This document shows positions 12,108-28,367 of a stretch of 64,000 bases of DNA, piece after piece; position 1 is the first letter of the stretch; each line of letters begins with the position of its first letter. Location of the stretch: positions 339,001-403,000 of the forward strand of contig CP136575.1 in the NCBI GenBank assembly GCA_035196065.1, read 5' to 3'. The DNA comes from Sphingobium sp. GTDB lineage: Bacteria; Pseudomonadota; Alphaproteobacteria; Sphingomonadales; Sphingomonadaceae. The notes under the pieces were generated by a model, which had not been told where the DNA came from, made no database searches, and worked only from the letters and a program-made list of their open reading frames with translations. The translations under genes and the position numbers were made by a program.

Positions 12108-12146
12108 GCGCCCCGATGGATCATTTCCGTCGGGGCGCTTTTATTT
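12108..12146 (+). terminator. Rho-independent terminator after flagellin remnant
   Basis: A 9-bp perfect stem (GCGCCCCGA at 12108-12116 pairing with TCGGGGCGC at 12130-12138) with a 13-nt loop is followed by TTTTATTT. It lies about 55 nt behind the expected flagellin stop and suits a highly expressed flagellin gene. It now also insulates the tRNA-Met gene downstream. Confidence 0.85.
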
Positions 12147-12285
12147 GCGGTTTACAAACCACAGGCAGGACAAAAAGCAGGCAGGGTCATTACGCCTCTT
12201 TAGCATCAGCGAATCTATTGACCCCGCAAGGCGCGCCGCCTATAGGCCGCGTCCTGTCGCGCATACAGCCGCGCGATGCCGGTAT

Positions 12286-12362
12286 GGCGGAGTAGCTCAG
12301 GTGGTTAGAGCAGCGGAATCATAATCCGCGTGTCGGGGGTTCGAGTCCCTCCTCCGCTACCA
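12286..12362 (+). tRNA. tRNA-Met (anticodon CAT)
   Basis: This is a 77-nt tRNA with encoded CCA. The acceptor arm GGCGGAG pairs with CTCCGCT (a G-U pair at position 1-72). The D arm AGCTCAGGTGGTTAGAGC, the anticodon stem GCGGA/TCCGC with loop ATCATAA (anticodon CAT) and the T arm GGGGG TTCGAGT CCCTC are all complete. It resembles elongator tRNA-Met. Its 3' end is the left attachment site of the element that follows, and the same 16 bp recur at 26217-26232. Confidence 0.95.
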
Positions 12363-12363
12363 T
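12348..12363 (+). repeat. attL: left attachment repeat
   Basis: The 16-bp sequence cctcctccgctaccat covers the T-arm/acceptor 3' side and CCA of tRNA-Met plus one base. It is identical to 26217-26232. Integration into a tRNA 3' end that keeps the tRNA whole is typical of P4-type integrases. Confidence 0.9.
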
Positions 12364-12427
12364 TCAAGTTATTTATCGCTCTGTTTTCAAAGGATAAAAT
12401 GACTTTTCTGGAAAATCGAAACCACAT

Positions 12428-12441
12428 TTGTTCCCACATTT
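12428..12441 (+). repeat. Integrase arm-type repeat near attL
   Basis: TTGTTCCCACATTT lies 65 nt inside attL. Closely similar copies, TTTTGTTCCCACA and CGTTCCCACATTT, stand side by side at 26073-26100, just inside attR. Matching short repeats at both inner ends are what arm-binding sites of a tyrosine integrase look like. The role is inferred. Confidence 0.6.
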
Positions 12442-12462
12442 TGTGCGAGCCGGAATGGGCTG

Positions 12463-13281
12463 TTATGCCCCTCGCTGGGACCGTTTCGCGGTCCCCTCAG
12501 ACGTTGTTGCTGTTCTACTTTCTTGGGTATTTGGACGAATCTTGACAGTGCATCGCACTGGCTGCTGCGAGGATGCGGCGGTCTTCCGGCAAGCGTCAAT
12601 GGCCTCGCGGTTGTCGCGCCGGATGTCAGCGGCCTGCACCAGTGCATTCCAGGCCTCGGGGCTGTCGCTCTGCATCAGCCGCGCACCTGCATCCCATCGT
12701 GTGGATTCTCCAACCATCCGCGCCGCCAAGCGCTCTGGCCAGTGCCAGCCTTCCGGCATCGTTCGGGCTAAGGTGCCGGGAAGGAAAGACCATAGCAGTA
12801 TTCCGGCGAGCAACGCTCCGCCTGCCACCTGGTAGAGTTGCAGCCGCTGCTCTGCGGCGGTGCGCGCTTGGGCCGTGACGCTCCGCATTTCCTGGGCAGC
12901 GTGGTTCAAGTCGCTCCGGGCCTGGCTGATCCTTTCATGGTCGCTGCGCCGTGCTGATTCTGCTGCTGCGGCGATCCGCTGGCCAATGCTGTCAGGCGTT
13001 ATCTGCATCGCGGGATGGCTCGCCATGCCCTTCAGGCTCTCGCCCATCGCCCCTATCCGCTTGGCCATGTCGGTCAAGGTCGCGCCGTAGTCGGGAATGA
13101 CGATGTCCGCGCGCTCGGCGGCCAGGTGCTGGACCGCCCGGCGCATGAGAGCCAGTTCTCCTTCAAGGCGGGCAAATGCCTCGGCGGCGGGATCGCCTGC
13201 GGCCTCCGGAACGGGCGCGTCGGGATCGGGTTCCGGCTCAAGGTCCAGGGTCGGTTCCACGTCATCCGTATCGGTATCCAT
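12463..13281 (-). CDS. TraA-associated membrane protein (DUF6118-like)
   Basis: This is a 272-residue protein with an acidic N terminus (DTDTDDVEPTLDLEPEPDPDAP), a helical/coiled-coil region (about 40-150, AEAFARLEGELALMRRAVQHL onward), a single transmembrane helix (about 155-175, VAGGALLAGILLWSFLPG) and a short cytoplasmic or periplasmic tail. It resembles a family I know as DUF6118 that accompanies TraA-type relaxases in sphingomonads; that link is from memory. The start at 13281 has a good ribosome-binding site (TAGGAGAA), and the gene begins 10 nt after the traA stop, so the two are one operon. A role in relaxosome or membrane coupling is plausible but unproven. Confidence 0.78.
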   Translation of the reverse strand: MDTDTDDVEPTLDLEPEPDPDAPVPEAAGDPAAEAFARLEGELALMRRAVQHLAAERADIVIPDYGATLTDMAKRIGAMGESLKGMASHPAMQITPDSIGQRIAAAAESARRSDHERISQARSDLNHAAQEMRSVTAQARTAAEQRLQLYQVAGGALLAGILLWSFLPGTLARTMPEGWHWPERLAARMVGESTRWDAGARLMQSDSPEAWNALVQAADIRRDNREAIDACRKTAASSQQPVRCTVKIRPNTQESRTATTSEGTAKRSQRGA

Positions 13282-13291
13282 CGAATTTCTC

Positions 13292-16177
13292 CTACAGGCC
13301 CATGCCGATTGACCGGCTCCGCTCCATCGAGATGGAGGCGGCAAGGTCGCGGGCCAGATCGCGACCGAGTTCTGTCTTGATGCCAAGCTCGCGGGTGCGG
13401 CTGCGCAGCAGGGATTCAACCTGCGCGTCGCGCTCCAGGCCCTTCGCCATGTCCGTCATGCGGCCCGTGAGCCTCTGCGCGCCCTTGCTGTCGCCATCGC
13501 GCTGCATGGCCTGGCGCGCCTGCGCAAGCCGCTGCCAGTCGCTGACAAAGCGGTCGGCGCGCTGCGCGGGATCAATACGGATTTCGGCCTCAAGCTGCAT
13601 GGCGCGGATTGCACCCTGGCTGCGACCATCGGCGGCTTCACGGGCCAGCGAGGGCTGGCGTTGCAAGGCGCTGGCGAGGTCGGCTGTGCCATGGGGCCGG
13701 ATCGCGTCGAGCGCCTTTGCAGCCTTCTCCAGCGCGTCGCGCTGGTGCGGCAGGACCGGCAATCCCTGTTCGCACATTTGCCCTATGTCGGCGGCGGCAC
13801 GGGCATAGCGTTCGACAGCTCGGCGCTGATCGGACAGGCCAGCCTGATCGGTTGGCACGGTTTCGAGCTTTGGGACCTGCGGGCGGAATCCGGCGAAGAT
13901 GGATTTCGCCCGCTCCGGCAACTGACGGGCGATTTCGACGATACGTTCACGGAAGGTGATGCCGCGCCGTTCGGCAAATTGCTGCTCGGGCTTGTAGTCG
14001 CTCGCCATGTCCTTGCCGCGCTCGCGGCTCAGAGTGCGCACTAGCTTTGACTGATCGGCGAAGTCATCGCGCCCATAGTGCAGGGCCACGCCGTCGCGGT
14101 GGCGCGACAGGCCGACATAGGCCCCGTGGCTGTCCAAGCCGGGGGTGGCCAGAACATGCGCGCGGTCGACCGTCATGCCCTGCGCCTTATGGATCGTCGC
14201 GGCGTACCCGTGATCGATATGCGCATAATCCTTGGTGTCGAAGGCGACGCTGCGGCCATCGTCGGTGCGCACGGCCATGCGCTGCGGCGTCACCTGCTCA
14301 ATGGTGCCCAGTGTGCCGTTCTTGACGCCCAGGCCCCGCTCATTGCGCAGGAACATGATACGGTCGCCGCTGGCGAACTGGCGCTCGCCGCGCTCGGCTT
14401 GGATGGTCACATCGATACCCAGTTCGCCACTGTCGCGCAGCTTTCCGCGCGCCGCGTCATTGAGTTCGCGCACCTCATCGTTGGTATGGGTGAGAATGAT
14501 GCGTGTATCGCCGGGGCTGGCCTGCCGGTTACGATCCCAGCGCTCGATCAGCTCGTCACGCGCTGCCTCCCGCGTCTCGGCGGCGTGCACCATGCCGCGT
14601 TCGCCATAGGCCTGAATGGAAAGTCCGGTGCGCCCTGTCGCAAGGTGCCAGGTGGCGTCCTGCTGCCAGCCTTCGTGCTGGCGGCGCACTTCGCTGATTT
14701 CGACGCCGCCATGCCGCTCGTGGATCGCACGGAAGGCGGCTCCAGCTTCGATGGCCTGCAACTGCTGCGGGTCGCCAACCAATACGACTTTCGCGCCTGC
14801 ATCGGCGGCATGGGAGAGGACGCGCTCCATCTGGCGCGTGCCGACCATACCAGCCTCATCAATAACCAGCACATCGCGCGACGTGAGCAATTCGCGGCCC
14901 TGGCTCCACTGATGCTCAAGGCTGGCAATGGTGCGCGAGGCGATGCCCGAACCGTGCTCCAACCCCTCGGCGGCAATACCGGACAGCGCCGCGCCTTGCA
15001 CGGTATAGCCCGCATTCTCCCATGCCTCGCGCGCCACGCCCAGCATCGCGCTCTTGCCGGTCCCGGCATAGCCGACGACAACGCTCAAGCCGCGCTCATC
15101 AGTCACATGCTCGAACGCCGCGCGCTGCTCGCCGGAAAGCACAAGGCCGCGCTCCGCCCCGTGCGCCAGCGCTCCTTCCCGGCCTGCGCCTTCGAGCTGA
15201 TGTTGTTCACGTTGCGCCAGCAGTGCCGATGCATGTCCAAGGCGCTGTTCGGTGTCGATCATCTGCCGCGAGGTGAACCGCTCTTCGCCGCGTCCGTCCT
15301 TGCCCAGCGCGATCAGGTCGGACGAACCGCGAACCGCCCTCATGGCCAGATCGAACTGCTCCTTGCTGTCGCTGTGCCGATGCACGAACATAGCAAGGTC
15401 GCGGTTGGTGAAGGTGGCCTGGCTGTGCATGATCGCGTCAAGCGCGACAGCGGGATTGGCGATAATCCGCTCGCCGTTGCGTAGCGCGACGGCGCGATGT
15501 TCCTCGATCCGCTCGGCCTCCAGCCCGCGCACGCCCATGCGCGATGCGGCGGGACCGATCTTGTCCTGCGGCTCCAGCGCGATACCCTGCGCCTCCAGGC
15601 TGCGGTGATCGATGCGGGCGTCGATGTCGAGTTCGGCCAGCCGCTCATTGACATGTTCGGCCCAACGCTCGCGCCACTGCTCGACCAGTTCGGCCTTGTT
15701 CCAATCACGCACCTTCGCGCCAAACCCGTCGCCGTCCACTTCGCGCATGGTCAGCATGACATGGGCGTGGGGCTTGGGCTGGCCGTCTGCGCCAATATCC
15801 CAATGGACATTGAGGTCGGCGATCATGCCCTTTGCAACGAACTCGGCTTCGACAAATTCGCGGGCCAGCTCGATGCCCTGTCCCTTGGTCAGCTCGCGCG
15901 GAATGGCGAACTCTACTTCGCGGGCAAGCTGCGCGTCCTTGCGCTTCTCGGCGGTCTCGACCGCGTTCCAGAGCTTTTCGCGGTCGGCAAATTCCTCCGG
16001 CGCGCCTTCCGGCAGCAGCACTTCGGAATGGACGACGCCGTCCTTGTTGGTGAAGTCGTGGTCACGGTCGAGCCGTTCGTCGTGCAGCCGCTCGGCCCCG
16101 CGATAGGCCGCTGCCGCCACGGCGCTGCGCCCGCTCGACCGGCTGATGACTTTGACGGAGAGATGGAAGATCGCCAT
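13292..16177 (-). CDS. traA: Ti-type conjugative relaxase TraA (MOBQ relaxase-helicase)
   Basis: TraA nicks oriT, stays bound to the 5' end and unwinds the transferred strand. The 961-residue protein has a MobA/MobL relaxase domain (about 1-210) with candidate catalytic Tyr25 (AAAAYRGAERL) and the metal histidines His125, His137 and His139 (HWDIG...PHAH). A TraI/RecD-like helicase domain follows, with Walker A GYAGTGKS (about 369-376), Walker B VIDEAG and the late motif HIDHGYAATIHKAQG. The start at 16177 (MAIFHLSVKVISRSSG) is the family N terminus; the ATG at 16216 adds unconserved residues. The C terminus is shorter than in the Agrobacterium protein but looks intact. Confidence 0.95.
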   Translation of the reverse strand: MAIFHLSVKVISRSSGRSAVAAAAYRGAERLHDERLDRDHDFTNKDGVVHSEVLLPEGAPEEFADREKLWNAVETAEKRKDAQLAREVEFAIPRELTKGQGIELAREFVEAEFVAKGMIADLNVHWDIGADGQPKPHAHVMLTMREVDGDGFGAKVRDWNKAELVEQWRERWAEHVNERLAELDIDARIDHRSLEAQGIALEPQDKIGPAASRMGVRGLEAERIEEHRAVALRNGERIIANPAVALDAIMHSQATFTNRDLAMFVHRHSDSKEQFDLAMRAVRGSSDLIALGKDGRGEERFTSRQMIDTEQRLGHASALLAQREQHQLEGAGREGALAHGAERGLVLSGEQRAAFEHVTDERGLSVVVGYAGTGKSAMLGVAREAWENAGYTVQGAALSGIAAEGLEHGSGIASRTIASLEHQWSQGRELLTSRDVLVIDEAGMVGTRQMERVLSHAADAGAKVVLVGDPQQLQAIEAGAAFRAIHERHGGVEISEVRRQHEGWQQDATWHLATGRTGLSIQAYGERGMVHAAETREAARDELIERWDRNRQASPGDTRIILTHTNDEVRELNDAARGKLRDSGELGIDVTIQAERGERQFASGDRIMFLRNERGLGVKNGTLGTIEQVTPQRMAVRTDDGRSVAFDTKDYAHIDHGYAATIHKAQGMTVDRAHVLATPGLDSHGAYVGLSRHRDGVALHYGRDDFADQSKLVRTLSRERGKDMASDYKPEQQFAERRGITFRERIVEIARQLPERAKSIFAGFRPQVPKLETVPTDQAGLSDQRRAVERYARAAADIGQMCEQGLPVLPHQRDALEKAAKALDAIRPHGTADLASALQRQPSLAREAADGRSQGAIRAMQLEAEIRIDPAQRADRFVSDWQRLAQARQAMQRDGDSKGAQRLTGRMTDMAKGLERDAQVESLLRSRTRELGIKTELGRDLARDLAASISMERSRSIGMGL

Positions 16178-16206
16178 GACGGCAATCCATCTACGCCATG
16201 AGCGCC

Positions 16207-16234
16207 ACGTCGGCACGACGTATAAGCGCGCCCT
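16207..16234 (+). other. Predicted oriT (RSF1010/Ti type)
   Basis: A perfect 6-bp inverted repeat, ACGTCG-GCA-CGACGT (16207-16221), is followed at once by TATAAGCGCGCCCT (16221-16234). RSF1010- and Ti-type origins of transfer have an inverted repeat followed by a core close to TAAGTGCGCCCT, where MOBQ relaxases nick. The site lies between the divergent traA and traC/traD genes, the same place as in Ti plasmids. Nicking is inferred from the similarity. Confidence 0.78.
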
Positions 16235-16349
16235 CCCATGATAAAATCCTGCTCGGGACTATTCAGTATCAGACCGTCTCGACGACTCTACAGCATTGAG
16301 AGAGCATCGATATTATCATCAGCGCATCACCTCTCAATGGAGAACTTCG

Positions 16350-16655
16350 ATGCGCAAACCCCGTGACCTTGATTCGGAACTAAAGGCGCTCGCCGACAAG
16401 GCGAAGCAACTGAAGGAACGCCGCGTGCAGCAGCTCGGCGAACTGGTGATCGCCACCGGGGCAGACACGACCGATGCGGAAACCCTGGCCGGTGCGCTGC
16501 TCGTCATTGCGGAAACCAGCGATGCCCAAAAGAAGGAGGCGTGGCGCAAGCGCGGCGCGGCCCTCTTTCAGAGCAAGGCGCGCAAGCGTGGCAATGGAAC
16601 TCAAGTCCAGCTGGATGGCACTCTCCCGCTTGACGGCGGCGCGGCATCGGCTTGA
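16350..16655 (+). CDS. traC: TraC-like conjugal transfer protein
   Basis: This is a small, charged, helical protein of 101 residues resembling TraC of Ti-type mobilization systems, which helps TraA process oriT. It starts MRKPRDLDSELKALADKAKQ, has a helical KAKQLKERRVQQLGELVIATGAD segment and ends with a basic KSKARKRGNG region. The ATG at 16350 is chosen because it follows TGGAGAAC; upstream in-frame residues to 16296 are unlikely. It is divergent from traA across the predicted oriT and followed by traD. The family match is by general pattern and position. Confidence 0.75.
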   Translation: MRKPRDLDSELKALADKAKQLKERRVQQLGELVIATGADTTDAETLAGALLVIAETSDAQKKEAWRKRGAALFQSKARKRGNGTQVQLDGTLPLDGGAASA

Positions 16656-16677
16656 GGCCCGAAAGGCACGAACCGAC

Positions 16678-16914
16678 ATGCGCGAATGGCAGGTCAAACG
16701 CCGCGGACGCACACGGCAACTGATCGAACTGGGCGGCCTGGTCGTGAAGGCTGGACTGGTCGAACTCGCCGACGATGATCGCGCCACGCTCTACGGCGCG
16801 TTCCTCACGGTTGCGGCCAAGCTGCGCGGCGAGGAACGCGAACAAGCGCTGGTGCTGTGGAAGCGCAAGGGCAAACGGGCGTTTGAAGCAGAAAGCGAGG
16901 CAGGTAGTAGGTAA
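16678..16914 (+). CDS. traD: TraD-like conjugal transfer protein
   Basis: This is a 78-residue basic protein with the TraD hallmark RTRQLIELGGLVVKAGLVELADDDRATLYGA near its start. TraD proteins of this small type (unrelated to the F-plasmid coupling protein) accompany TraA and TraC in Ti-like systems as an accessory factor. ATGs at 16594 and 16615 in the same frame would overlap traC by more than 40 nt, so the start at 16678 (MREWQVKRRGRTRQ) is used. In a complete system a traG coupling gene would normally follow; here a MarR gene on the opposite strand does, so the backbone is broken after traD. Confidence 0.78.
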   Translation: MREWQVKRRGRTRQLIELGGLVVKAGLVELADDDRATLYGAFLTVAAKLRGEEREQALVLWKRKGKRAFEAESEAGSR

Positions 16915-16981
16915 GCAGGTTTGGATTGAAGCGGGTAGAATGGCTGCAGTGTTAAAAGGTGCTCCAGAAGAACGGCTTACA

Positions 16982-17437
16982 CTACAATTCCTCGAGATTG
17001 CCCGACATCGTTGCCAGCAACGTCTTGATCGCCGCAAACTCTCTATCGGAAATTCCCGACAACAGGCGGGCGTAGATCGCATCGGCCTCAAGCCTGAGCG
17101 AAGGAAGTATCTCGATTGCCCGAGGCAGCAGATGCAGTGTCCAGACCCGGCGATTGCCCTCGATTGAGCGTCGCTCGACATATTCGGCCTTTTCCAGCTG
17201 ATCGATCACATGACCCACGCTGGCGCGTTCCAGATCAAGGCATTTGGCGAGTTCGGTCTGGGTAAGTCCCGGTGACCGAAAGATATAGGCAAGCGCGCGC
17301 CATTGGGTGCGGGACAGGCCGAATTTTGCCGTAGAGGCATCGAACAGCCTGCGCAGTTTACGCGGCACTTCCTCGACGAGAAACACGATCTCGTCGTTCT
17401 CGGTCATGTAGCTGTCCTGGTCGATTTCCTGTTGCAT
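16982..17437 (-). CDS. MarR-family transcriptional regulator
   Basis: This is a 151-residue winged-helix repressor of the MarR family. The recognition helix region (about 60-90) reads LTQTELAKCLDLERASVGHVIDQLEKAEYVERR, and the wing has NRRVWTLHLL. Such proteins bind palindromes and release them on contact with phenolic or lipophilic ligands. It is divergent from the hydrolase-thioesterase-efflux operon, and a perfect 24-bp palindrome lies between the two starts, so it probably controls both directions. An in-frame second Met (residue 11, MTENDEIVFLVEEVP) could also be the start. Confidence 0.92.
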   Translation of the reverse strand: MQQEIDQDSYMTENDEIVFLVEEVPRKLRRLFDASTAKFGLSRTQWRALAYIFRSPGLTQTELAKCLDLERASVGHVIDQLEKAEYVERRSIEGNRRVWTLHLLPRAIEILPSLRLEADAIYARLLSGISDREFAAIKTLLATMSGNLEEL

Positions 17438-17479
17438 CGGGCAAGCGCCTTACCCGCCGAGCGTTCAATTGAAAAGACT

Positions 17480-17503
17480 TTACTGTAAGACATCTTACAG
17501 TAA
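17480..17503. promoter_or_regulatory. Predicted MarR operator palindrome
   Basis: TTACTGTAAGA-CA-TCTTACAGTAA is a perfect inverted repeat with 11-bp arms in the 75-nt gap between the divergent marR and hydrolase genes. It ends 9 nt before the hydrolase start codon, so a bound repressor would block that transcript directly. A TTGAAA at 17469-17474 could serve as a -35 box. Function is inferred from position and symmetry. Confidence 0.85.
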
Positions 17504-17512
17504 GAAGGTTTC

Positions 17513-18397
17513 ATGCATAGTGAATCGATCAAGCTGGAAGGGAAGGCAGGCCATGCCATCGCCGCCAGCATCGAAGGGGCGCGGGATGGAATGCCGGTTA
17601 TTCTCGCGCACGGCGGCGGGCAAACCCGACGGGCCTGGAAGAAGATTTCGACGCTACTTGCTGGTCGCGGCTTTCATGCCATCGCAATCGACCTGCGCGG
17701 ACATGGCGACAGCGAATGGGCCAGGGACGGGGCCTATGACATTGCCGACTTCGCGAGCGACCTCGTTGCTATCGCCGCCCGGTTGGCGCGCAAGCCAGCA
17801 CTGATCGGCGCATCGCTGGGGGGACTCGCCGGGATCGTCGCCGAAGGGCAACTCGCACCCGGCAGTTTCGCTTCGCTGACACTCGTCGATATTACGCCGC
17901 AAATGGAGGCAACGGGCGTTGCGCGCGTTGTAGGCTTCATGGCGGCCCATGCGCGCGAAGGCTTCGCTTCGCCCGATGAGGCTGCGCGCGTGATCTCGGA
18001 ATACTTGCCGCATCGCCCCAGCCGCAAGGCATCGGCAGGGCTGGCCCACTATCTGCGCCAGAAGCCCGACGGGCGGTATTATTGGCATTGGGATCCTGCG
18101 TTCATCGACGGGGTCATGCGCCGTCACGCGCAAGACGGCGCGTTGGGCGATCACGGACGGAGCGAACTCAGCAGTGCCGCGATGAATCTCGCGCTTCCGG
18201 TGCATCTGGTCAGGGGCGGTTCGAGCGATCTGGTCTCGCCGGAAGCCGTTGAGCATTTCCGGAAACTGGTCCCGCACGCTGCCTTCAGCGACATTGCCGA
18301 TGCCACCCACATGGTCGTGGGCGACCAGAACGACGTATTTGGAGCGGCGATTGCCGACTTCCTGATCCGCACTCACGATAAGGGCGATGCAACATGA
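17513..18397 (+). CDS. Alpha/beta-fold hydrolase
   Basis: This is a 294-residue cytoplasmic alpha/beta hydrolase with an oxyanion-type HGGGQ loop (about 33-37), the LRGHGDSEWA motif, a nucleophile elbow GASLGG (Ser at about 101), a lid domain (about 130-200) and a late Asp/His pair, with the His in DATHMV. It is most like epoxide hydrolase/lactonase/esterase-type proteins, and the substrate cannot be read. It is first in the MarR-controlled operon and overlaps the thioesterase by ATGA, so it may detoxify or modify the compound that the downstream pump exports. Confidence 0.88.
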   Translation: MHSESIKLEGKAGHAIAASIEGARDGMPVILAHGGGQTRRAWKKISTLLAGRGFHAIAIDLRGHGDSEWARDGAYDIADFASDLVAIAARLARKPALIGASLGGLAGIVAEGQLAPGSFASLTLVDITPQMEATGVARVVGFMAAHAREGFASPDEAARVISEYLPHRPSRKASAGLAHYLRQKPDGRYYWHWDPAFIDGVMRRHAQDGALGDHGRSELSSAAMNLALPVHLVRGGSSDLVSPEAVEHFRKLVPHAAFSDIADATHMVVGDQNDVFGAAIADFLIRTHDKGDAT

Positions 18398-18807
18398 CCG
18401 CCCGCTCCAACAGGCCGGAACTCGCGGAACTCCGCAAGATGCTCCACATCGCGCCGTTTCACCGCTGGCTCGGCCTCGATATTGTCGATCTGACCGAGCG
18501 GGAACTGATCCTCGAAATGCCCTGGCGGGATGAAATCGTCTCCAACCCGATGATCGGGTCGGCGCATGGCGGTATCTTGTCGGCATTGATCGACCTGACT
18601 GGTCTCTACACCGTCAACGCGCTGGGCGGCACGGCGCGGGCGACCGCCGACCTTCGCGTCGATTTTCACCGTCCTGCAACCTCCGGGCCGCTGCGTGCGA
18701 TTGGTAGTGTCGTCAAACTGGGCAAGCAGTTGAGCGTCGCGGAAACCCGGATCGAGGATTCGGCCCACAGGCTGCTGGCTAGCGGCAGGGGGGCCTATGT
18801 CGGTTGA
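18394..18807 (+). CDS. PaaI-type hotdog thioesterase
   Basis: This is a 137-residue hotdog-fold protein of the PaaI/phenylacetyl-CoA thioesterase superfamily, expected to hydrolyse acyl- or aryl-CoA esters. The core motif SAHGGILSALIDLTGLYTVN (about 55-75) contains the usual HGG, and the beta strand RATADLRVDFHRPA follows. It overlaps both neighbours (ATGA upstream, 11 nt into the outer-membrane gene downstream), so it is fully embedded in the operon. A hydrolase and a thioesterase coupled to an efflux pump suggest an aromatic or acyl-linked substrate, which is inference. Confidence 0.87.
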   Translation: MTARSNRPELAELRKMLHIAPFHRWLGLDIVDLTERELILEMPWRDEIVSNPMIGSAHGGILSALIDLTGLYTVNALGGTARATADLRVDFHRPATSGPLRAIGSVVKLGKQLSVAETRIEDSAHRLLASGRGAYVG

Positions 18808-20245
18808 CCCCCGTTTCCCTACCATCGGAATCGTGCTTGCGCTGTCGGCCTGTGTTGGGGTTCCCGATGCCGGTGTCAGGCCGGTCATGCGGACCCCCGA
18901 GTCCATCGAGGCGACCCAGACCCTCGCCGCGCGCGGCAGCATTGGCTGGCCGCCCGACCAGTGGTGGCGGCTTGTTGGCGATCCGCAGCTCACCCAGTTG
19001 ATCGAGGAAGGCCTTGCCAACTCGCCGCAGACCGCGATTGCCATGGCTAGGATAAGACGGGCGGACGCAGAGGCTCAGCGCGTCGGCGCAGCCCGGCTCC
19101 CGACCGTCGGCGGCGAGGCGGAAGGTGGCTTGCGCCGCCAAAGCGGCAACAACGGCATACCCGCGCAGTTCCTTCCCGATGGCTGGGCGGATTACGGCCA
19201 GGCCTCGCTGTCGTTCGATTTCGACCTTGATCTATGGGGTCGCAACCGAGCGGCCTATGCCGCCGCGACCTCGGGAGCTCGTGCGGCGGTGGTCGATGCC
19301 GCGCAGGCGCGGCTTGTCCTTTCGGTTGCGATCACCGCCGCTTATGCCGAACTGGGCAGGCACTACCGTGAACGCGACAACGCCGAGGCCGTGCTGGTCA
19401 ATCGCCGCGCGGCGTTGGCGCTGGTTGCCGAGCGCGAACGCAACGGCCTCGACAACCGCATAGGCCTGCGCCGCGCCGAAGCGGAACTGGCGAGCGCCGA
19501 GCAGGACATGGCGGCGGTCGATGAAAGCATCGCCCTGCGCCGAAACCAGTTGGCCGCGCTAGTGGGGGCCGGACCGGATCGGGGCCGGACGATCACGCCA
19601 GCACCGCTATTCCCATCGACACCGCTTGGTATTCCGGCCGGGTTGACCACGGACCTGCTTGGCAGGCGTCCGGACATTGTCGCGGCGCGCGAACGGGTCG
19701 AAGCGGCTGAAAGCCGCATCAAGGTGGCGCGCGCCGGATTCTTTCCTTCGGTAAATCTCAGGGCGCTGATCGGCTTGCAAGCTCTTGGGATTGGCAACCT
19801 CGTCGATTCCGGATCTTTGTTCGGATCGGCTGGCCCGGCGATCAGCCTGCCAATCTTTCAGGGCGGCGCGCTCAGGGCGCAATATGGCCGCGCCGGAGCG
19901 GATTATGAGGAGGCAGTCGCCAGCTATAACCAGACCGTGATTTCCGCCTTTCAGCAGGTTGCCGACGCAGTAACGCAGCGCGAGGCGGCGGACAAACGGC
20001 TGGCGGCAGCACGCACTGCCCTGGCCGCGAGCGAAGATGCCCTTGCGCTGGTCAACAATCGCTACACGGCTGGCTTGGCCAGCCGACTCGACGTGCTCGC
20101 CAGCGAGCGGGCGGTTCACGATCTCCGGCTCGCCGTGATCGGTCTCGAAACCTACGAGCGGGGCGCAACTCTGGCTCTGATCCGGGCCCTCGGCGGCGGA
20201 TTTGCAGCAGACACTCAAACTTCACCGGAACCGATAACCCAATGA
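18797..20245 (+). CDS. Outer-membrane efflux lipoprotein (NodT/OprM type)
   Basis: This is the outer-membrane channel of a tripartite efflux system, of the TolC/NodT family. It has 482 residues, with a lipoprotein signal whose lipobox LSAC places the modified Cys at residue 19. Two OEP repeats follow, about 60-250 and 265-470, with the typical LGRRPDIVAARERVEAAESRIKVARAGFFPSVNL and ISLPIFQGG in the second half. It sits before the adaptor and the transporter and overlaps both neighbours by a few bases. The gene order OMF-adaptor-MFS is that of EmrAB-type pumps that bring their own outer-membrane partner. Confidence 0.94.
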   Translation: MSVDPRFPTIGIVLALSACVGVPDAGVRPVMRTPESIEATQTLAARGSIGWPPDQWWRLVGDPQLTQLIEEGLANSPQTAIAMARIRRADAEAQRVGAARLPTVGGEAEGGLRRQSGNNGIPAQFLPDGWADYGQASLSFDFDLDLWGRNRAAYAAATSGARAAVVDAAQARLVLSVAITAAYAELGRHYRERDNAEAVLVNRRAALALVAERERNGLDNRIGLRRAEAELASAEQDMAAVDESIALRRNQLAALVGAGPDRGRTITPAPLFPSTPLGIPAGLTTDLLGRRPDIVAARERVEAAESRIKVARAGFFPSVNLRALIGLQALGIGNLVDSGSLFGSAGPAISLPIFQGGALRAQYGRAGADYEEAVASYNQTVISAFQQVADAVTQREAADKRLAAARTALAASEDALALVNNRYTAGLASRLDVLASERAVHDLRLAVIGLETYERGATLALIRALGGGFAADTQTSPEPITQ

Positions 20246-21387
20246 CCGCTGCCGCGCCCGAAACCCCTGCCGTCGATCCGGCCCTGTCCCAGTCCCGCAA
20301 GGCGTCGCGCAAGCGATGGCTCACGCGGCTTGCAGTGGCCTTGGCGGTGATCGGACTGGCCTGGGGGGTCTGGTATCTGCTGGTCGCCCGGAATTTCGTG
20401 TCCACCGAAAATGCCTACGTCAATGCGCAAATGGCGCAGGTCACGCCGCTGGTTGCAGGCTCGGCGACCGAGGTTCTGGTGCGCGACACCCAGCAGGTGA
20501 AGGCCGGACAAGTGCTGGTGCGACTCGATCAGGCCGACGCGCGGATCGCGCTGGCCCAGGCGGAAGCGGATATGGCCGCAGCGCGGCGGCGCTTCCGTCA
20601 GACCGTTGCCAACAGCTCCGCCTTGGCGGCGCAAGTGGACACCTCCGGTGCCGGAGTAACCCAGGCTCAGGCGCAATATCGCACGGCGCAGGCTGAACAC
20701 GAAAAGGCCCGGATCGATCTGCAGCGCCGAGAGAATGTGGCAGCTAGCGGGGCGGTATCCGGTGAAGAGTTGACGCAGGCCCGCAGGACCTATGCCACGA
20801 CCCTGGCCGCGCTCGATGTAGCGCGCGGGGCGATCAACCAGGCCAGCTCGTCAAAGCGCGCCGCGCAAGGGCAACTGGCCGCGAACGCCGCGCTGGTGAG
20901 CGGATTAAGCGAGAATAGCGATCCTGCCGTATTGGCCGCCATGGCGCGGCGCGATGCCGCGCAACTCAATCTCGACCGCACGGAAATCCGCGCGCCCATC
21001 GACGGTGTCGTCAGCAAGCTGCAAGTCCAGATCGGGCAACGGCTCAATCCCGGACAGATCATCATGACAATTGTGCCGCTGGCTAGTGTCTATGTTGAGG
21101 CCAACTTCAAGGAGAGCCAGTTGCAGCGTGTGCGGATCGGCATGCCCGTCAAGCTCACCGCCGACCTCTACGGATCGAACGCAACCTATCGCGGCAAGGT
21201 GGTCGGCTTTGCGGGCGGCACTGGTTCTTCGATGGCCGTTATCCCGGCTCAGAATGCGACCGGCAACTGGATCAAGGTCGTCCAACGCTTGCCCGTTCGC
21301 ATCGAACTCGATCCAGCCGACCTCAAACGGCATCCGCTGCGGGTCGGCCTGTCGATGGAAGTCGAAATTGACGTTTCGGGCGACTGA
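20242..21387 (+). CDS. HlyD/EmrA-family membrane fusion protein
   Basis: This periplasmic adaptor joins the MFS pump to the outer-membrane channel. It has 381 residues: a cytoplasmic N terminus, one transmembrane helix (about 30-52), a biotinyl-lipoyl half (TENAYVNAQMAQVTPLVAGSA), a long alpha-hairpin (about 100-220) rich in Ala, Gln and Glu, the second lipoyl half with TEIRAPIDGVVSKLQVQIGQ, and a beta-barrel C terminus (VYVEANFKESQL). It overlaps the upstream gene by ATGA and stops 5 nt before the transporter. It is EmrA-like by architecture. Confidence 0.94.
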   Translation: MTAAAPETPAVDPALSQSRKASRKRWLTRLAVALAVIGLAWGVWYLLVARNFVSTENAYVNAQMAQVTPLVAGSATEVLVRDTQQVKAGQVLVRLDQADARIALAQAEADMAAARRRFRQTVANSSALAAQVDTSGAGVTQAQAQYRTAQAEHEKARIDLQRRENVAASGAVSGEELTQARRTYATTLAALDVARGAINQASSSKRAAQGQLAANAALVSGLSENSDPAVLAAMARRDAAQLNLDRTEIRAPIDGVVSKLQVQIGQRLNPGQIIMTIVPLASVYVEANFKESQLQRVRIGMPVKLTADLYGSNATYRGKVVGFAGGTGSSMAVIPAQNATGNWIKVVQRLPVRIELDPADLKRHPLRVGLSMEVEIDVSGD

Positions 21388-21392
21388 CAGCC

Positions 21393-22922
21393 ATGAGCGG
21401 CACCGCAAAGACTGCGACGGGCATCCCACCTTCGCTTCGGCTGATCGCCGGGCTTACCCTGGCGTTTGCGAACTTCATGGTGATTCTCGATCTGACGATC
21501 GCCAATGTTTCGATCCCCCATATTGCAGGCAGCCTCGGCATCACGCTCGAACAAGGCGCGTGGGTTATCACCTCCTATGCGATTGCCGAAGCGATTTGCG
21601 TGCCGTTGACGGCGTGGATTGCGTTCAGGTTTGGCTCGGTTCGCACCTTTCTGTTCAGCATGATGGGTTTCGGTTTCTTTTCGCTCCTCTGCGGGCTGTC
21701 AGTCTCAATCGAAATGCTGGTGATGTGCCGCATCGGACAGGGCATTTTCGGGGCCTTTCTGATGCCTATGTCGCAAACCCTGCTGCTGCGCGTATTCCCG
21801 CCCGAGCAGCAAAACATCGGCATGGGCATGTGGGCAATGACGCTGCTGCTTGGGCCTGCACTCGGCCCGATCATCGGGGGCTGGCTGACCGATAACTGGT
21901 CCTGGCACTGGATATTCCTGATCAACGTGCCAGTTGCCCTGCTTTCCATCATCGGCGGGGCCGTCCTGCTCCGCCCGATTGAAACCGAACGCCGCGTCTT
22001 GCCAATCGATTATGTTGGCCTTGTTCTGCTGGTTATTTGGGTCGGCTGCTTGCAGGTCATCCTCGATATTGGCCGCAACCATGACTGGTTCGGTGACCCG
22101 CTGATCGTCGTGCTGGCTATAACGTCGGCTGTCGCATTCCTGATTTTTGTCGTCTGGGAACTCACCGAAGACCATCCCGTGGTCGATCTGCGCATTCTGC
22201 GGCATCGGGGGCTGAGTGTCAGCCTCGTAGTCCTCTCAATCAGTTTCGGCGCCTATTTCGCGGGCTTTGTGATTGTTCCGCAGTGGCAACAGGCATGGCT
22301 GGGCTTCACCGCGACGCAGGCAGGCTATTCGTCTTCATTCTCGGCGATCGCGGGTCTCCTGACAGCACCGCTTGTCGTGATGCTGATGCCGCGGCTCGAT
22401 CCCCGCTTGCTGGTTTCGGGAGGCATCGTTTGGCTGGCCGTGATGGGGCTCTTGCGGACATTCTGGGCCACCGACAGCGATTTCTGGACACTCAGCATAC
22501 CCCAATTCGTTCAAGGGCTGGGCATGACTTTCCTGATGTTGCCGATCATCAACCTGACGTTGAGTACCGTGGACGAGCATGAAGTCGCATCAGCCGCAGG
22601 CTTGCAAAGTTTCATGCGTACCATTGCGACGGCATTCGCGACTTCGGTTTCGCTGACCTATTGGGGCGACACCCAGCGCGCGGCACGCAACGATATAGCG
22701 GGCGTTCTGCAACCGGACGCTGAAGGCGGCGCAATTGCCGGACTGGGCTTCTCACCCGAGGGTGCGCGCCAAATGCTGAGCAACATGGTCGAGGTAGAGG
22801 CCACGACCCTGTCTGTGCTGCACGTCTTCTGGACGACATCCGCAATTCTGCTGATCGCTGCGGCACTCATCTGGCTAGCGCCCCGGCCCAAGCGGAGCGG
22901 CGGCGTGTCGATGGGGCATTGA
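21393..22922 (+). CDS. DHA2-family (EmrB-type) drug efflux MFS transporter
   Basis: This is a 14-helix proton/drug antiporter in the inner membrane (509 residues). Family marks are the early motif LDLTIANVSIPHIAGSLGITLEQGAWVITSYAIAEAI, motif A-like RFGSVRTFLFS, and the DHA2 motif GPALGPIIGGWLTDNWSWHWIFLINVPVALL (about 150-180). It is last in the MarR-controlled operon. DHA2 pumps with an EmrA partner export hydrophobic weak acids, phenolics and uncouplers. After its stop the sequence changes to a truncated gene on the other strand. Confidence 0.95.
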   Translation: MSGTAKTATGIPPSLRLIAGLTLAFANFMVILDLTIANVSIPHIAGSLGITLEQGAWVITSYAIAEAICVPLTAWIAFRFGSVRTFLFSMMGFGFFSLLCGLSVSIEMLVMCRIGQGIFGAFLMPMSQTLLLRVFPPEQQNIGMGMWAMTLLLGPALGPIIGGWLTDNWSWHWIFLINVPVALLSIIGGAVLLRPIETERRVLPIDYVGLVLLVIWVGCLQVILDIGRNHDWFGDPLIVVLAITSAVAFLIFVVWELTEDHPVVDLRILRHRGLSVSLVVLSISFGAYFAGFVIVPQWQQAWLGFTATQAGYSSSFSAIAGLLTAPLVVMLMPRLDPRLLVSGGIVWLAVMGLLRTFWATDSDFWTLSIPQFVQGLGMTFLMLPIINLTLSTVDEHEVASAAGLQSFMRTIATAFATSVSLTYWGDTQRAARNDIAGVLQPDAEGGAIAGLGFSPEGARQMLSNMVEVEATTLSVLHVFWTTSAILLIAAALIWLAPRPKRSGGVSMGH

Positions 22923-22939
22923 ACGCGCCTGTTGGGGGA

Positions 22940-23284
22940 AGTGACGGAACGGGCGTGGTTCACCGCATCCAGCCAAGAATAGCGTCCGCCTGCCCACGGG
23001 AATCGTGCGGTGAACTCCTCCAAGTCCACCATCTCGACAGGATCATTGGTGTCGAGTCCTGGAAGTGAAGGGAAGCGTGACGGGCGGGAGATGAACCAAC
23101 CGAAGCAGTTAACGGCGAGTGCGGCGGAGCTTTCGGGACTCTCAAGTTTGACTGACCCTACTTCGTTTCTGCCAGCAGCGCCAAATCGATCCAAGACATG
23201 TTCGACTGGAACACTGGGAAGAAACCCTGTCAAACTCAACGCGGATTCGTTGCCATCATCCGCTTTTAGACCGCGACTATGCAA
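22940..23284 (-). pseudogene. Truncated gene next to the phosphoribosyltransferase
   Basis: The leftward frame from 23284 looks like real protein for about 107 residues (NESALSLTGFLPSVPVEHVL, FGAAGRNEVGS, SPESSAALAVNCFGWFI, FPWAGGRYSWLDA). It then turns into non-protein-like sequence and the antisense of the MFS gene end, near 22923-22963. It starts 18 nt behind the phosphoribosyltransferase stop and was probably its operon partner. The N terminus reminds me of a family related to PGN_0703-type putative restriction endonucleases, whose nuclease motif would lie further on and is lost here; that identification is tentative. The break coincides with the end of the efflux cargo. Confidence 0.55.
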
Positions 23285-23301
23285 AGTTCTTACGTCCTCA
23301 A

Positions 23302-24069
23302 TCAGTCACCTGGCTCAACCGCTGTCTGGAGACCTCGGCCACGTGCTTCGACTGCTGCCTGAGCCAGGAAATCCTCGATGGCGGCAACGGAGTGCTGACG
23401 ACATAGGTTGAGGGCTTCGACTTCCGTGAGGCAGTCGATCCCGTAGCCGAATTGGCTTTTCCAGAGGTCGTCAAGTGCTTGGCCATGATGCTCCCATAAC
23501 ACAATTCGGGTTGCGGGCTGCAATGAAATTATGCGCGCGTCCCGGCTCTCGGTCAGGGTCGTGATCGCGATGACCTCTCCGCCGCGCGCCTCGACGTAAC
23601 CGCGCAGGTTGGCGAGAGTGCCGCCAAGGCCGACGTGATCGTCAACAAGCACATAGTTTGCACCCGGCTGGACCTGCCCTTCGAACGTCGCCGGGGTAAC
23701 CAGCCGCTGAAATGCCGGGGCACGGGTATGGCCGACTTTGTTTGTCTGGACGATTTCACCGGCGATGACGGGGGTTCCAAGTTCGCTGCCCAACACCTGC
23801 GCCATCGCATCGGGGATCGCGTTGAAGCCCGTCAACTCGTCGGCCACGACCGGCAGGAGCAGAGTAGGCCGATTGCCGATGATCTCGTGAAGACTCACTA
23901 TTCCATCTGGCGACAGTAGATCGGATGCCAGCATGAGAGCCGCCTCGGCATCCCCCGCCTTTGCGGCGGCGTAACCCGGATGGTTATCACGTGTGCGGAC
24001 ATCTGTGTGGATCACTACATCGGGGAAATCGGGTGGCCAGGGCAATCGGGTTGGCAATGGGTTGCTCAT
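23302..24069 (-). CDS. Phosphoribosyltransferase-like protein of mobile elements
   Basis: This is a 255-residue type I PRTase-fold protein. The PRPP-binding signature is YVLVDDHVGLGGTLANL (about 146-162): two acidic residues followed by the GGT loop. A flexible-loop region and the extended N terminus (MSNPLPTRLPWPPDFPDVVIHTDVRTRDNHPGYAAAKAGDAEAALMLA in parts) are not those of the orotate or hypoxanthine enzymes. The start at 24069 matches the natural N terminus; the frame is open to 24222 without protein-like sequence. The nucleobase or other acceptor is unknown. Similar genes occur in integrated elements, where a role in defence or nucleotide signalling is possible but unproven. Confidence 0.8.
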   Translation of the reverse strand: MSNPLPTRLPWPPDFPDVVIHTDVRTRDNHPGYAAAKAGDAEAALMLASDLLSPDGIVSLHEIIGNRPTLLLPVVADELTGFNAIPDAMAQVLGSELGTPVIAGEIVQTNKVGHTRAPAFQRLVTPATFEGQVQPGANYVLVDDHVGLGGTLANLRGYVEARGGEVIAITTLTESRDARIISLQPATRIVLWEHHGQALDDLWKSQFGYGIDCLTEVEALNLCRQHSVAAIEDFLAQAAVEARGRGLQTAVEPGD

Positions 24070-24138
24070 CTCGTGAACATGCCCACAGGCGGGTTGAAAA
24101 GCCAGAACCCGATAGCGCGCACCAAGTTGAACCGGCAA

Positions 24139-24159
24139 TTTGCGCGATTCGCGCGCAAA
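24139..24159. promoter_or_regulatory. Inverted repeat upstream of PRTase gene
   Basis: TTTGCGCG-attcg-CGCGCAAA is an 8-bp perfect inverted repeat 70 nt ahead of the phosphoribosyltransferase start and in the 376-nt gap shared with the divergent alpA-like gene (24070-24445). It could be an operator for one of the two HTH proteins. The rest of the gap shows no gene I can support. Confidence 0.4.
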
Positions 24160-24445
24160 ATCCACCGATGCCGACGCAGATTTGCGGCGATGACGGCGCA
24201 AATGCCCGACGATGAAGCGCATTACCGCAAAACTCTTGTTTGAACTGCTTTCCGCGCCCTCGCATTTCTCGCCGCGCCTTTCCGTCTCATGCTTTCTATT
24301 GCCTTGTCATGGCGTCCTTTTCCCAATCCATCCGACTGCGCCCTGCGCTACGATGTACCGGAAATGTTCTTGCCTTCGCGAAGCAGGCCGCCAATCCTTG
24401 GTCTCGGGAGGTTTCATCAACTGCCAACTTATGGAAGCAAGTCCC

Positions 24446-24661
24446 ATGTCGAATGCCGAAAAGATCATCCGCCTCAAGACCGTTCTCGACCGCACCGGCC
24501 TTTCCCGCTCCACGCTCTATCGCAAGATCGCCGAGGGGACATTTCCGCCCCAGGTCAGGATCAGCATCCACGGTGCGGGTTGGCATGAATCGGCAGTGAG
24601 CGGCTGGATCGCCGATCCTGCTGCCTACCGCCACAGTCAGAGGGAGAGCCGGGTGTCATGA
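24446..24661 (+). CDS. AlpA-family HTH regulator
   Basis: This is a 71-residue AlpA/MerR-like helix-turn-helix protein: IIRLKTVLDRTGLSRSTLYRKIAEGTFPPQVRISIHGAGWHESAVSGWI. AlpA-type proteins of P4-like satellites regulate integrase or act in excision. The ATG at 24446 gives the normal family length; the same frame is open upstream to 24212 without protein-like sequence. It overlaps the following HTH gene by ATGA, so both are made from one message running towards the integrase gene. Confidence 0.88.
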   Translation: MSNAEKIIRLKTVLDRTGLSRSTLYRKIAEGTFPPQVRISIHGAGWHESAVSGWIADPAAYRHSQRESRVS

Positions 24662-24846
24662 ACGCGCTCCCTGATCCAATATGCGTCCGGGTCAACGATG
24701 CCGCCCGCATGATCGGTGTGGGCCGGACCAAACTCTACGAACTAATTGCCAGTGGCGAAGTGCAGGCCGTCAAACTTGGCAAGTCCACCCGAATTACCAC
24801 TGCGAGCTTGCATGAGCTAATCAGGCAGCAACGCGATCCTCTGTAG
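24658..24846 (+). CDS. Excisionase-type HTH protein
   Basis: This 62-residue protein consists of one winged-helix/MerR-like excisionase domain: VRVNDAARMIGVGRTKLYELIASGEVQAVKLGKSTRITTASLHELI. Such proteins are recombination directionality factors or small regulators. It overlaps alpA by 4 nt, and its 3' end overlaps the convergent integrase gene by 26 nt (24821-24846), so transcription of one may interfere with the other. The pair alpA plus excisionase could set the balance between integration and excision. Confidence 0.83.
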   Translation: MNALPDPICVRVNDAARMIGVGRTKLYELIASGEVQAVKLGKSTRITTASLHELIRQQRDPL

Positions 24847-26026
24847 GCTCTGCCGCCGCATCGGCTGGCGTTGCCTCGGCGCGGGGCGGGCTATCCAGAT
24901 AGTCCGCCCACAGCTTCATCAAGCCGCGCCGCTTCTCGAAAAAGTCAGTTCGGCGATAGGCAGCTTCAACTTTGTCGGGCAGTTTGTGGGCCAAAGCCTT
25001 GTCTGCCACCTCCTTGGGATATTCGGTGCATTCCGACGACCAGTCGGTAAAGGCGGAGCGGAAGCCGTGAACCGTCACGCCGCTTATGCCGTCATCGCGC
25101 AAAAGCTTCGTCATCGTCATGTCGCTGATCGGCTTCTTTCCATCCTTGGAAAAGACGAGGCCGATATCGCTGGCGCGCTCGTCCCATCGCCTGCGGAGCA
25201 ATGCGACCGTGGGTGCGGACAACGGCACGACATGAGTTTCGCGGGCCTTCATACGCTCGCCGGGTATAGTCCAGACCGCGTTGTCCAGGTCGAACTCTGT
25301 CCAGACTGCAAGCCGGGTTTCGTTCGATCGGACAGCGTTGTAGATCGTGAAGCGCAAGGCGTCGCGCCCGATCGTCGGCGCAGCGTTCGCCAATTTCCGC
25401 ATGAGGGCAGGGACTTCAGCATAGGGCATGGCCTCCATGTGGCCGCGCTTGTCGTTCTGGCGCGGTAGCCCCTTGCGAACGGATCGCAGTGAAACTTCCT
25501 CCGGCACCCAGCCTTTGACGTGGGCGAAATCCAACACCACGCCGATGCGCTGCAACATGCGCCTCGCCGTTTCGGGAACCTCCAGCCAGATAGGGGAGAG
25601 CGCCTCGGCAACGCAGGCGCTATCGACCTGATCGACTTGCTTCCCTCCGATCCGGGGAAAGACATGCCGCTCAAAGCCAGACAGCCAACGCGCGTGATGG
25701 CCCTCCTTCCAACCGTCGCCAAGTGTTTCATGGCAGCTCCGGGTTGCGACCTCGAAGGTCGGGATGACCTTCCGTGCATTGCGGCGCTCGGCAACAGGAT
25801 CGAAGCCTTCGCGCACTTGCCTGCGCAACATGGAGGCGGCCTCACGCGCTTCGGCTAGCGAAACGTCCAGTGCTGAACCCAGCCCATAGTCGCGGCGCTG
25901 CCCATTCAACTGCATTCGCAGCATCCAAGTCCGCGCACCGCTTGGCTTCACCAGCAGGCAAAGGCCACGGCCATCGACGTGGCGACCGGGCTTGGCATTC
26001 TTTACTTTCAGGATCGTCAGCGGCAT
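24821..26026 (-). CDS. P4-type tyrosine integrase
   Basis: This is a site-specific recombinase of 401 residues. It has an N-terminal arm-binding domain (about 1-85, VKNAKPGRHVDGRGLCLLVKPSG), a core-binding domain (about 95-190) and a catalytic domain with Arg in YNAVRSNETRL, the HGFRSAF box (His and Arg) and the tyrosine in EAAYRRTDF. It is 190 nt from attR and reads into the element, the usual arrangement for tRNA-targeting integrases. The C-terminal tail is rich in Ala, Pro and Glu. It is the likely enzyme for the 16-bp att sites described here. Confidence 0.95.
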   Translation of the reverse strand: MPLTILKVKNAKPGRHVDGRGLCLLVKPSGARTWMLRMQLNGQRRDYGLGSALDVSLAEAREAASMLRRQVREGFDPVAERRNARKVIPTFEVATRSCHETLGDGWKEGHHARWLSGFERHVFPRIGGKQVDQVDSACVAEALSPIWLEVPETARRMLQRIGVVLDFAHVKGWVPEEVSLRSVRKGLPRQNDKRGHMEAMPYAEVPALMRKLANAAPTIGRDALRFTIYNAVRSNETRLAVWTEFDLDNAVWTIPGERMKARETHVVPLSAPTVALLRRRWDERASDIGLVFSKDGKKPISDMTMTKLLRDDGISGVTVHGFRSAFTDWSSECTEYPKEVADKALAHKLPDKVEAAYRRTDFFEKRRGLMKLWADYLDSPPRAEATPADAAAEPTEDRVAA

Positions 26027-26072
26027 CAGGTTCGAGTCCCTGTTAGGGAATCACACCCCCGAAAAGGCGGCA

Positions 26073-26100
26073 TTTTGTTCCCACAATCGTTCCCACATTT
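26073..26100 (+). repeat. Paired arm-type repeats near attR
   Basis: Two close copies of GTTCCCACA (26078-26086 and 26089-26097) stand in direct order between the integrase start and attR; a third copy is near attL at 12430. They are candidates for integrase arm-binding sites. Confidence 0.6.
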
Positions 26101-26216
26101 CGGCGGGAATTCAGGCAATTCGAAGCGACCGACCGCGAATACGTTACAAGATAAATCGCTGATTTTACAGTGGACTTAAGGACGTTCTGAAATCGCCTGA
26201 GACGAAAGTTATAGCG

Positions 26217-26232
26217 CCTCCTCCGCTACCAT
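26217..26232 (+). repeat. attR: right attachment repeat
   Basis: cctcctccgctaccat is identical to the tRNA-Met 3' end at 12348-12363. No tRNA body precedes it, so it is the displaced original 3' end. The sequence to its right (from 26233) should be continuous with the tRNA-Met region in strains lacking the element. Confidence 0.9.
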
Positions 26233-26474
26233 ATTTTCCAATGCTATCTTTTGTTTGACCCCTGCGGTGCTGTGCACAACCATGCGTATGGTTTATCGCG
26301 CGGTTTTGAATTGTGCGGAGACGGCGCGGATGCGGTGTTTTCGCTGGTTACGAAATGGTCGTGTGGCACGACTGTTGCCGTTTGCTTCAAGTCAGCGCTT
26401 GTAGGACATGCCACGAGTGAGCATAGCGCTCAGCCAGTCTATCGTTCTTGTCCATTTGTAGCAGAGTGCCAGAT

Positions 26475-28348: not shown

Positions 28349-28367
28349 GGCGTCCATATAGACGTAT

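Follow-up and report, generated by a model that had tools for sequence, protein, structure and literature searches.

A 13.9 kb tRNA-Met island of Sphingobium sp. as a probable integrative and mobilizable element with its own relaxase and a predicted origin of transfer

How a genomic island that encodes a relaxase and no conjugation pore could move between cells is the question raised by a locus of Sphingobium sp. (GenBank assembly GCA_035196065.1, contig CP136575.1, positions 339,001 to 403,000). The window analysed here is this whole stretch of 64,000 nucleotides, to which all coordinates refer unless another record is named. The island occupies 13.9 kb between two core repeats of a tRNA-Met gene and is most probably, with a probability of roughly 0.87, a canonical integrative and mobilizable element (IME), integrated and provided with its own relaxase and origin of transfer (oriT) but without a coupling protein or pore.

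A preliminary description of the locus had placed 16-bp identical repeats at the 3' end of the tRNA-Met gene and at 26217, with an integrase gene adjoining the right copy, and the repeats are found exactly there and nowhere else in the window (CCTCCTCCGCTACCAT, two copies only, both strands counted), while the integrase gene begins about 190 bp from the right copy. The description had also proposed a comparison with close relatives, which reveals a precise empty site in a genome listed under the same species (G062, 78% complete). In this genome the counterpart of window 10993-12364 is joined directly to that of 26217-40364, the two flanks being 98.1 and 98.9% identical to the window and one repeat copy being present between them. 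Because the empty site stops at the repeat on both sides, the 13.9 kb insertion cannot be ascribed to chance. A search of G062 for the integrase returned only relatives of 26-36% identity, which indicates that the element is missing from it, within the limits of the 78% complete assembly. The sequence CCTCCTCCGCTACCA is present at both ends in five related loci. A further short sequence, GTTCCCACA, occurs three times in the 64 kb, always on one strand and always near the two ends of the element, and judging by this placement the copies may be arm sites of the integrase.

Between the left and right attachment sites (attL and attR) the order of features, with strands in brackets, is attL; one copy of GTTCCCACA; DUF6118 (-); TraA (-); oriT; TraC and TraD (+); MarR (-); the efflux operon (+); a phosphoribosyltransferase-like gene (-); an AlpA-like gene and a second helix-turn-helix (HTH) gene (+); the integrase (-); two copies of GTTCCCACA; and attR (Table 1). 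The integrase contains the domains Arm-DNA-bind_3, Phage_int_M and Phage_integrase, all above their curated cut-offs, and the HTH pair that had been claimed beside it is recognised in the same way by Phage_AlpA and HTH_17. From its sequence family, the AlpA-like protein is likely to be an excision factor or regulator. PADLOC gave weak matches only, to the MarR and AlpA-like proteins.

The mobilization genes lie at the other end of the element. TraA exceeds the curated cut-offs of both MobQ (200) and TraA_Ti (590.45), and the NCBIfam models call the relaxase MobQ/TraA_Ti; with the MobA_MobL match and the two PF06412 proteins, which also score above cut-off, the TraA relaxase and TraC/TraD of the preliminary description are confirmed. 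TraA probably starts at 16177 and not at 16216 as first read, which makes the oriT intergenic, and traA and traC diverge with this Ti-like predicted oriT between them. The oriT-like site reported earlier corresponds to a 58-bp block at 16204-16261 that is conserved in relatives and has a core in common with the Ti plasmid. Its identity is 58/58 in G024, 56/56 aligned positions in G032 and 57/59 in NC_008036, where the TraA proteins are 85, 89 and 74% identical, respectively, and the block is conserved while its flanks diverge between relatives. Local alignment of the block with the traC-traA intergenic region of pTiC58 yields AGGGCGCnnTTATACGTC with a score of 33, which 0/500 shuffles reach (shuffle maximum 25). 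A 71-base oriT query matches 90 plasmid records at E up to 10, the weakest of which may be chance, and 76 of the 90 are named Sphingobium, Sphingomonas, Rhizorhabdus, Sphingopyxis, Novosphingobium or Blastomonas. The block may resemble the oriT of RSF1010 as well.

By its sequence, then, the island has a relaxase and an oriT of its own. A Pfam scan of 16 sequences, representing 15 distinct larger open reading frames (ORFs) of the island, revealed no VirB/Tra pore or type IV coupling protein (T4CP) domain, in agreement with the earlier statement that transfer machinery is lacking; the coupling protein and pore that would define a self-transmissible integrative and conjugative element (ICE) are not found in it. 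The ratio of nonsynonymous to synonymous substitutions (dN/dS) is 0.07-0.08 for the integrase (5 comparisons), 0.11-0.19 for TraA (6 comparisons) and 0.07-0.19 across integrase, relaxase and phosphoribosyltransferase-like protein (16 chosen comparisons), and all three are under purifying selection.

Table 1. Features of the tRNA-Met island and its target, in window coordinates
Feature	Position	Strand	Basis and remarks
tRNA-Met(CAT), attachment target	12286..12362	+	ARAGORN; Rfam tRNA; intact after integration
attL core repeat CCTCCTCCGCTACCAT, 16 bp	12348..12363	+	covers last 15 bases of tRNA-Met(CAT)
candidate arm-type site GTTCCCACA, left end	12430..12438	+	putative function
DUF6118 protein, 3' of TraA	12463..13281	-	PF19613 89.1 bits, above cut-off; adjoins TraA in relatives and plasmids
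TraA, MOBQ relaxase with RecD-like helicase	13292..16177	-	MobA_MobL 254.7 bits; TraA_Ti 933.5; MobQ 265.4
predicted oriT, 58-bp block	16204..16261	.	inverted repeat ACGTCG-gca-CGACGT and core GACGTATAAGCGCGCCCT
TraC-like relaxosome accessory protein	16350..16655	+	PF06412 (TraD-family) 70.1 bits
TraD-like relaxosome accessory protein, not F-type coupling protein	16678..16914	+	PF06412 79.6 bits
MarR-family regulator	16982..17437	-	family scan
alpha/beta hydrolase	17513..18397	+	family scan
hotdog-fold thioesterase	18394..18807	+	family scan
NodT-type outer-membrane efflux channel	18797..20245	+	TIGR01845 383.7 bits, above cut-off
EmrA-type membrane fusion protein	20242..21387	+	TIGR00998 404.2 bits, above cut-off
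EmrB/DHA2 major facilitator superfamily (MFS) exporter	21393..22922	+	TIGR00711 397.2 bits, above cut-off
phosphoribosyltransferase-like protein of this sub-clade	23302..24069	-	PF00156 14 bits, below cut-off 26.3; conserved in relatives
AlpA-like HTH	24449..24661	+	PF05930 (Phage_AlpA) 54.3 bits, above cut-off
second small HTH protein	24658..24846	+	PF12728 (HTH_17) 45 bits, above cut-off
tyrosine integrase, arm-type (P4-type family)	24821..26026	-	PF13356, PF22022, PF00589
two candidate arm-type sites GTTCCCACA, right end	26077..26097 (26077, 26089)	+	putative function
attR core repeat CCTCCTCCGCTACCAT, 16 bp	26217..26232	+	single copy in G062 empty site

Near-identical DNA is present in another genus. 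Plasmid pYT40 of Porphyrobacter sp. YT40 (NZ_CP041223.1, L005), a genus listed in the Erythrobacteraceae, contains window 21730-26232 with six differences in 4503 bp (99.87%), which is the right third of the element and stops exactly at the core. Synonymous divergence from other family members ranges from 0.27 to 1.36 (five integrases, five phosphoribosyltransferase-like proteins and six relaxases), which marks the YT40 copy as a recent relative. The left part of the copy has been removed by IS6100 and the fragment adjoins drug-efflux genes; positions 14178-21018 of pYT40 comprise the right third, the tRNA-Met core and a second, back-to-back integrase, flanked by IS6100 copies. The plasmid has a long run of annotated F-type transfer genes and is typed in PLSDB as mobilizable only. 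That pYT40 represents an IME docked on the attP of a helper plasmid was dropped as the sole reading, because the IME fragment, the core and the second integrase lie between two IS6100 copies and capture by IS6100 explains the arrangement equally well. A plasmid search with the second integrase of pYT40 found no other plasmid above 60% identity, and one with the element's own integrase found pYT40 alone above this level.

Six aligned integrases were searched against one genome per species, the genomes that supplied the queries included; this produced 102 relatives, and the 80 best were retained. By their titles nearly all of these 80 are Sphingomonadales or metagenome bins with only a higher-rank name, one exception being Oceanicaulis sp. 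HTCC2633. The skeleton of the family is INT-HTH-AlpA-cargo-TraD-TraC-TraA-DUF6118. AlpA is found in 59 and the second HTH in 56 of the 67 loci with at least 3 kb past the integrase, and among the 52 loci with at least 9 kb past it TraD occurs in 24, TraC in 22 and TraA in 21, counts that are lower bounds because the mobilization block sits at the far end. Right ends were readable in 79 of the 80 relatives (one, whose match does not start at the integrase start, was dropped) and fall at the 3' end of tRNA-Met (29), in tRNA-Glu(CTC) (16) and in tRNA-Lys(CTT) (1), with 33 unassigned, among which two recurrent tRNA-like ends are visible. Both ends lie in tRNA-Met at five loci: three of them (L117, L162, L164) have the integrase with TraA, TraC and TraD, one (L098) has a partial TraA with TraC and TraD not seen, and one of 3.3 kb (L172) has a cut integrase match. 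Both ends were also read in G032 (tRNA-Met) and G024 (tRNA-Lys).

The cargo slot of these relatives is occupied by different genes, namely a related EmrAB-type pump with P450, flavoprotein and AMP-binding (acyl-CoA ligase-like) genes in G032, cation-efflux and copper-resistance genes in G024, and a hydrogenase cluster in NC_008036 of S. alaskensis, where no integrase is annotated. The element is thus one of a family that occurs mainly in the Sphingomonadales, exchanges its cargo and uses no fewer than three tRNA targets. The S. alaskensis record (NC_008036.1, L087) is an F plasmid record of 28.5 kb, linear, in which DUF6118-TraA-TraD and the AlpA/HTH pair surround the hydrogenase cluster; its incomplete table has no annotated replication gene, and it may hold an integrated element. 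The Sphingobium source genome itself has a second integrase of the family (G000:C1:956733-957887, L040), 75-76% identical, with HTH and AlpA genes and a tRNA-Glu-type core.

Transfer of such an element would depend on a helper, and the preliminary description had suggested that it rides on a resident conjugative plasmid or ICE. In the source genome, a one-contig assembly, a VirB2/B4/B6/B8/B9/B10/B11 locus lies at about 183.5-191 kb (G000:C1, L089); it was found via PF03135 (one VirB4) and then by Pfam searches of the neighbouring genes, and it adjoins ORFs that look RHS-like by eye. A search of the same genome for coupling proteins gave no match to PF02534 or PF12696, and three weak matches to PF10412, one just above cut-off, turned out to be two HerA-like ATPases and VirB4 itself. 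The suggested dependence on a helper is retained, with its resident source given up, since the genome offers a VirB pore but yielded no coupling protein to go with it, and a helper would have to be supplied from outside. In a 2016 comparison of 14 Erythrobacter genomes, a first type IV secretion system (T4SS) copy, followed by virB4, is described as present in all strains and as coevolving with the genomes (PMC4919336).

A candidate is suggested by the surroundings of sister elements. Nine of the 72 relatives for which 1300 bp or more of upstream sequence could be read carry a second integrase that points away across the core, and in four of these (L104, L117, L162, L164) it is 71-84% identical to the integrase that directly follows tRNA-Met in G029, the other five being 32-38% identical to it. 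An F-type TraC gene is present in all four of these genomes and was not found in G000 or in G029 (82% complete). In G070 (L162) cores at 625286, 718923 and 728710 (tRNA) show a 9.8 kb IME that abuts, in the same tRNA-Met, a 93.6 kb element encoding thirteen F-type transfer proteins (TraL, E, K, B, DsbC, C, W, U, TrbC, N, F, H and G), a MobF relaxase and a T4CP, all relatives of pYT40 proteins. In G069 (L117), with cores at 341166, 408203, 409454, 475652 and 486928, the IME stands beside two apparently decayed F-type copies; the five tRNA-Met cores in 146 kb (G069:C1:341166-486928, L205 to L195) form one array. The best helper candidates, at about even odds, would therefore be F-type ICEs or plasmids that share this tRNA-Met core and beside which sister elements sit. 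It is more tentatively proposed that MOBQ IMEs and F-type ICEs of the Sphingomonadales have converged on this core, where the IME would dock on the ICE to form an IME-core-ICE unit, whose outer cores in G070 are about 103 kb apart. The IME would then move in one of two ways: in cis, with both elements in a single circle, or in trans, with its Ti-type relaxosome fed into the coupling protein and pore of the F-type partner. IMEs stacked with ICEs or ICE remains are known in general (PMC5704250).

The life cycle envisaged for the canonical IME would start with recombination by the integrase between the attP core and the 3' end of tRNA-Met, which leaves the tRNA intact. The AlpA-like protein would probably steer excision of the element as a circle, TraA with TraC and TraD would nick the oriT and lead one strand to the helper's coupling protein and pore, and the element would reintegrate at the tRNA-Met of the recipient. 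The mobile nature that the preliminary description had ascribed to the island is borne out by its anatomy, the same-species empty site, the relatives in the same and other tRNA genes and the 99.87% identical right third on a plasmid; excision, nicking and transfer are predictions from the encoded functions. Several observations weigh against it. No complete helper with both pore and coupling protein was found in the source assembly, and no TraA was found in the 16 kb next to the second family integrase of that genome (L040). In 28 of the 52 relatives TraA, TraC and TraD are all missing from the stretch covered; at least two of these (L146 in G032 and L113 in G024) nevertheless have the mobilization block further out, and integrase-only islands may be among the rest. 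Since IS6100 truncates the pYT40 copy, this insertion sequence and not the integrase may have brought the copy onto the plasmid. Only four of the 72 relatives adjoin an integrase of the tRNA-Met ICE class. Of the neighbours analysed in two of these four, the one in G070 has a full-looking transfer set, and those in G069, which are apparently decayed, have a cut TraC and gave no match for TraG, MobF or a coupling protein.

The lack of a complete helper in the source genome and of a direct sign of excision would also fit an immobile remnant, a former IME fixed in the lineage and kept for its efflux genes. This is unlikely given the open reading frames of the integrase, TraA, TraC, TraD and the HTH pair, the low dN/dS, the two intact ends and the absence of the element from the same-species G062. 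Two further readings are distinctly less probable. The DUF6118-TraA-oriT-TraC-TraD block is also found on small plasmids such as pA46BH3 and pRSMS3, as if one of the small mobilizable TraA/DUF6118 plasmids that are common among sphingomonads had integrated, but these plasmids have a replication gene near the block whereas none is recognised among the scanned ORFs of the element, and its integrase/HTH/att end is common to a family of integrated elements. Since TraACD performs the DNA processing in Ti-type conjugation systems, and on a related plasmid a coupling-protein gene is still found next to it, the island could be a decayed ICE that lost its pore genes. Nine relatives (L095, L117, L122, L123, L128, L143, L147, L162 and L164), however, have the arrangement INT-HTH-AlpA-...-TraD-TraC-TraA-DUF6118 in one locus with a spacing that leaves little room for a pore cluster, which suggests that the family has long been without a pore. 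Least probable is a P4-like phage satellite or defective prophage, to which the P4-type integrase and AlpA-like regulator would be suited, because a relaxase and oriT are present and the scanned ORFs include no capsid, packaging or phage replication gene. The satellite, plasmid and ICE readings were rejected on this evidence.

As a canonical IME, the island resembles the canonical IMEs (PMC5704250) and the iMOB class (PMC11389934) in having its own relaxase and oriT without a coupling protein and pore. It differs from the canonical IMEs of the 2017 review in being alphaproteobacterial, that review listing no canonical example in Proteobacteria (PMC5704250). IMEMl(R88B)-like traACD IMEs of Mesorhizobium, reported later, are likewise alphaproteobacterial; their traACD genes are Ti-like, traA and traC are transcribed away from each other as they are at the Ti oriT, and IMEs there use tRNA genes including tRNA-Met. 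In these a putative recombination directionality gene lies 3' of traA, which is called MOBF, whereas here DUF6118 takes that place, the AlpA-like pair lies beside the integrase and the relaxase is MobQ/TraA_Ti (PMC8627217). Plasmid pPDL2 of Sphingobium fuliginis is also a sphingomonad element called an IME, whose integrase has a tRNA-derived att site and which is mobilizable with a helper, but it is a replicating 37 kb plasmid with a tRNA-Ser attB, another integrase module and no tra genes detected by its authors (PMC3516476). Erythrobacter ICEs at tRNA-Met-CAT share the target and place their integrase immediately behind the tRNA, like the F-type elements beside sister IMEs; unlike the island they are reported as ICEs and hence are helper candidates (PMC4919336).

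Judged by titles and abstract openings, no description of the sphingomonad family, its delimitation, targets and cargo or the adjoining IME-ICE pair was found in the open-licence literature, and it is these that are new here, the kind of element itself being already known. The locus provides, within Proteobacteria, an IME of defined limits that has a natural empty site and a mapped predicted oriT, together with a concrete hypothesis on its helper; this question is made directly testable by the adjacent IME and ICE of G070. The members examined differ in cargo, which comprises efflux genes, metal and copper resistance, hydrogenase and a probable catabolic cluster, and with such variety in sphingomonads, a group studied for pollutant degradation, the family is a plausible vehicle of their gene exchange.

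The largest passenger of the island, absent from the preliminary description, is a five-gene EmrAB-like efflux operon with a MarR regulator, which probably exports toxic hydrophobic compounds or pathway intermediates. EmrRAB-type operons have in common with it a MarR-family regulator and an EmrA/EmrB-type pump, whereas the operon of the element adds its own outer-membrane channel, hydrolase and thioesterase. The cassette (16982-22922) also occurs on Croceicoccus (83.9%) and Blastomonas (72%) plasmids, near acyl-CoA and FAD oxidoreductase genes, and is inverted in G032. The phosphoribosyltransferase-like protein is 87-95% identical in seven relatives; its best PDB profile match is an adenine/guanine phosphoribosyltransferase (E=0.00058), its similarity to ShosT is weak (E about 0.06), and plasmid homologues are annotated as phosphoribosyltransferase. 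Among the matches listed, homologues at about 43-46% identity are spread over many plasmids, where some bear the annotation KfrC or stable inheritance protein.

A second insertion of 22 kb lies further along the window (40364-62414) and is likewise absent from G062 on the same contig. It stops at a tRNA-Thr gene (62415-62490), and its ORF at 60317-62182 resembles, by eye, a large serine recombinase.

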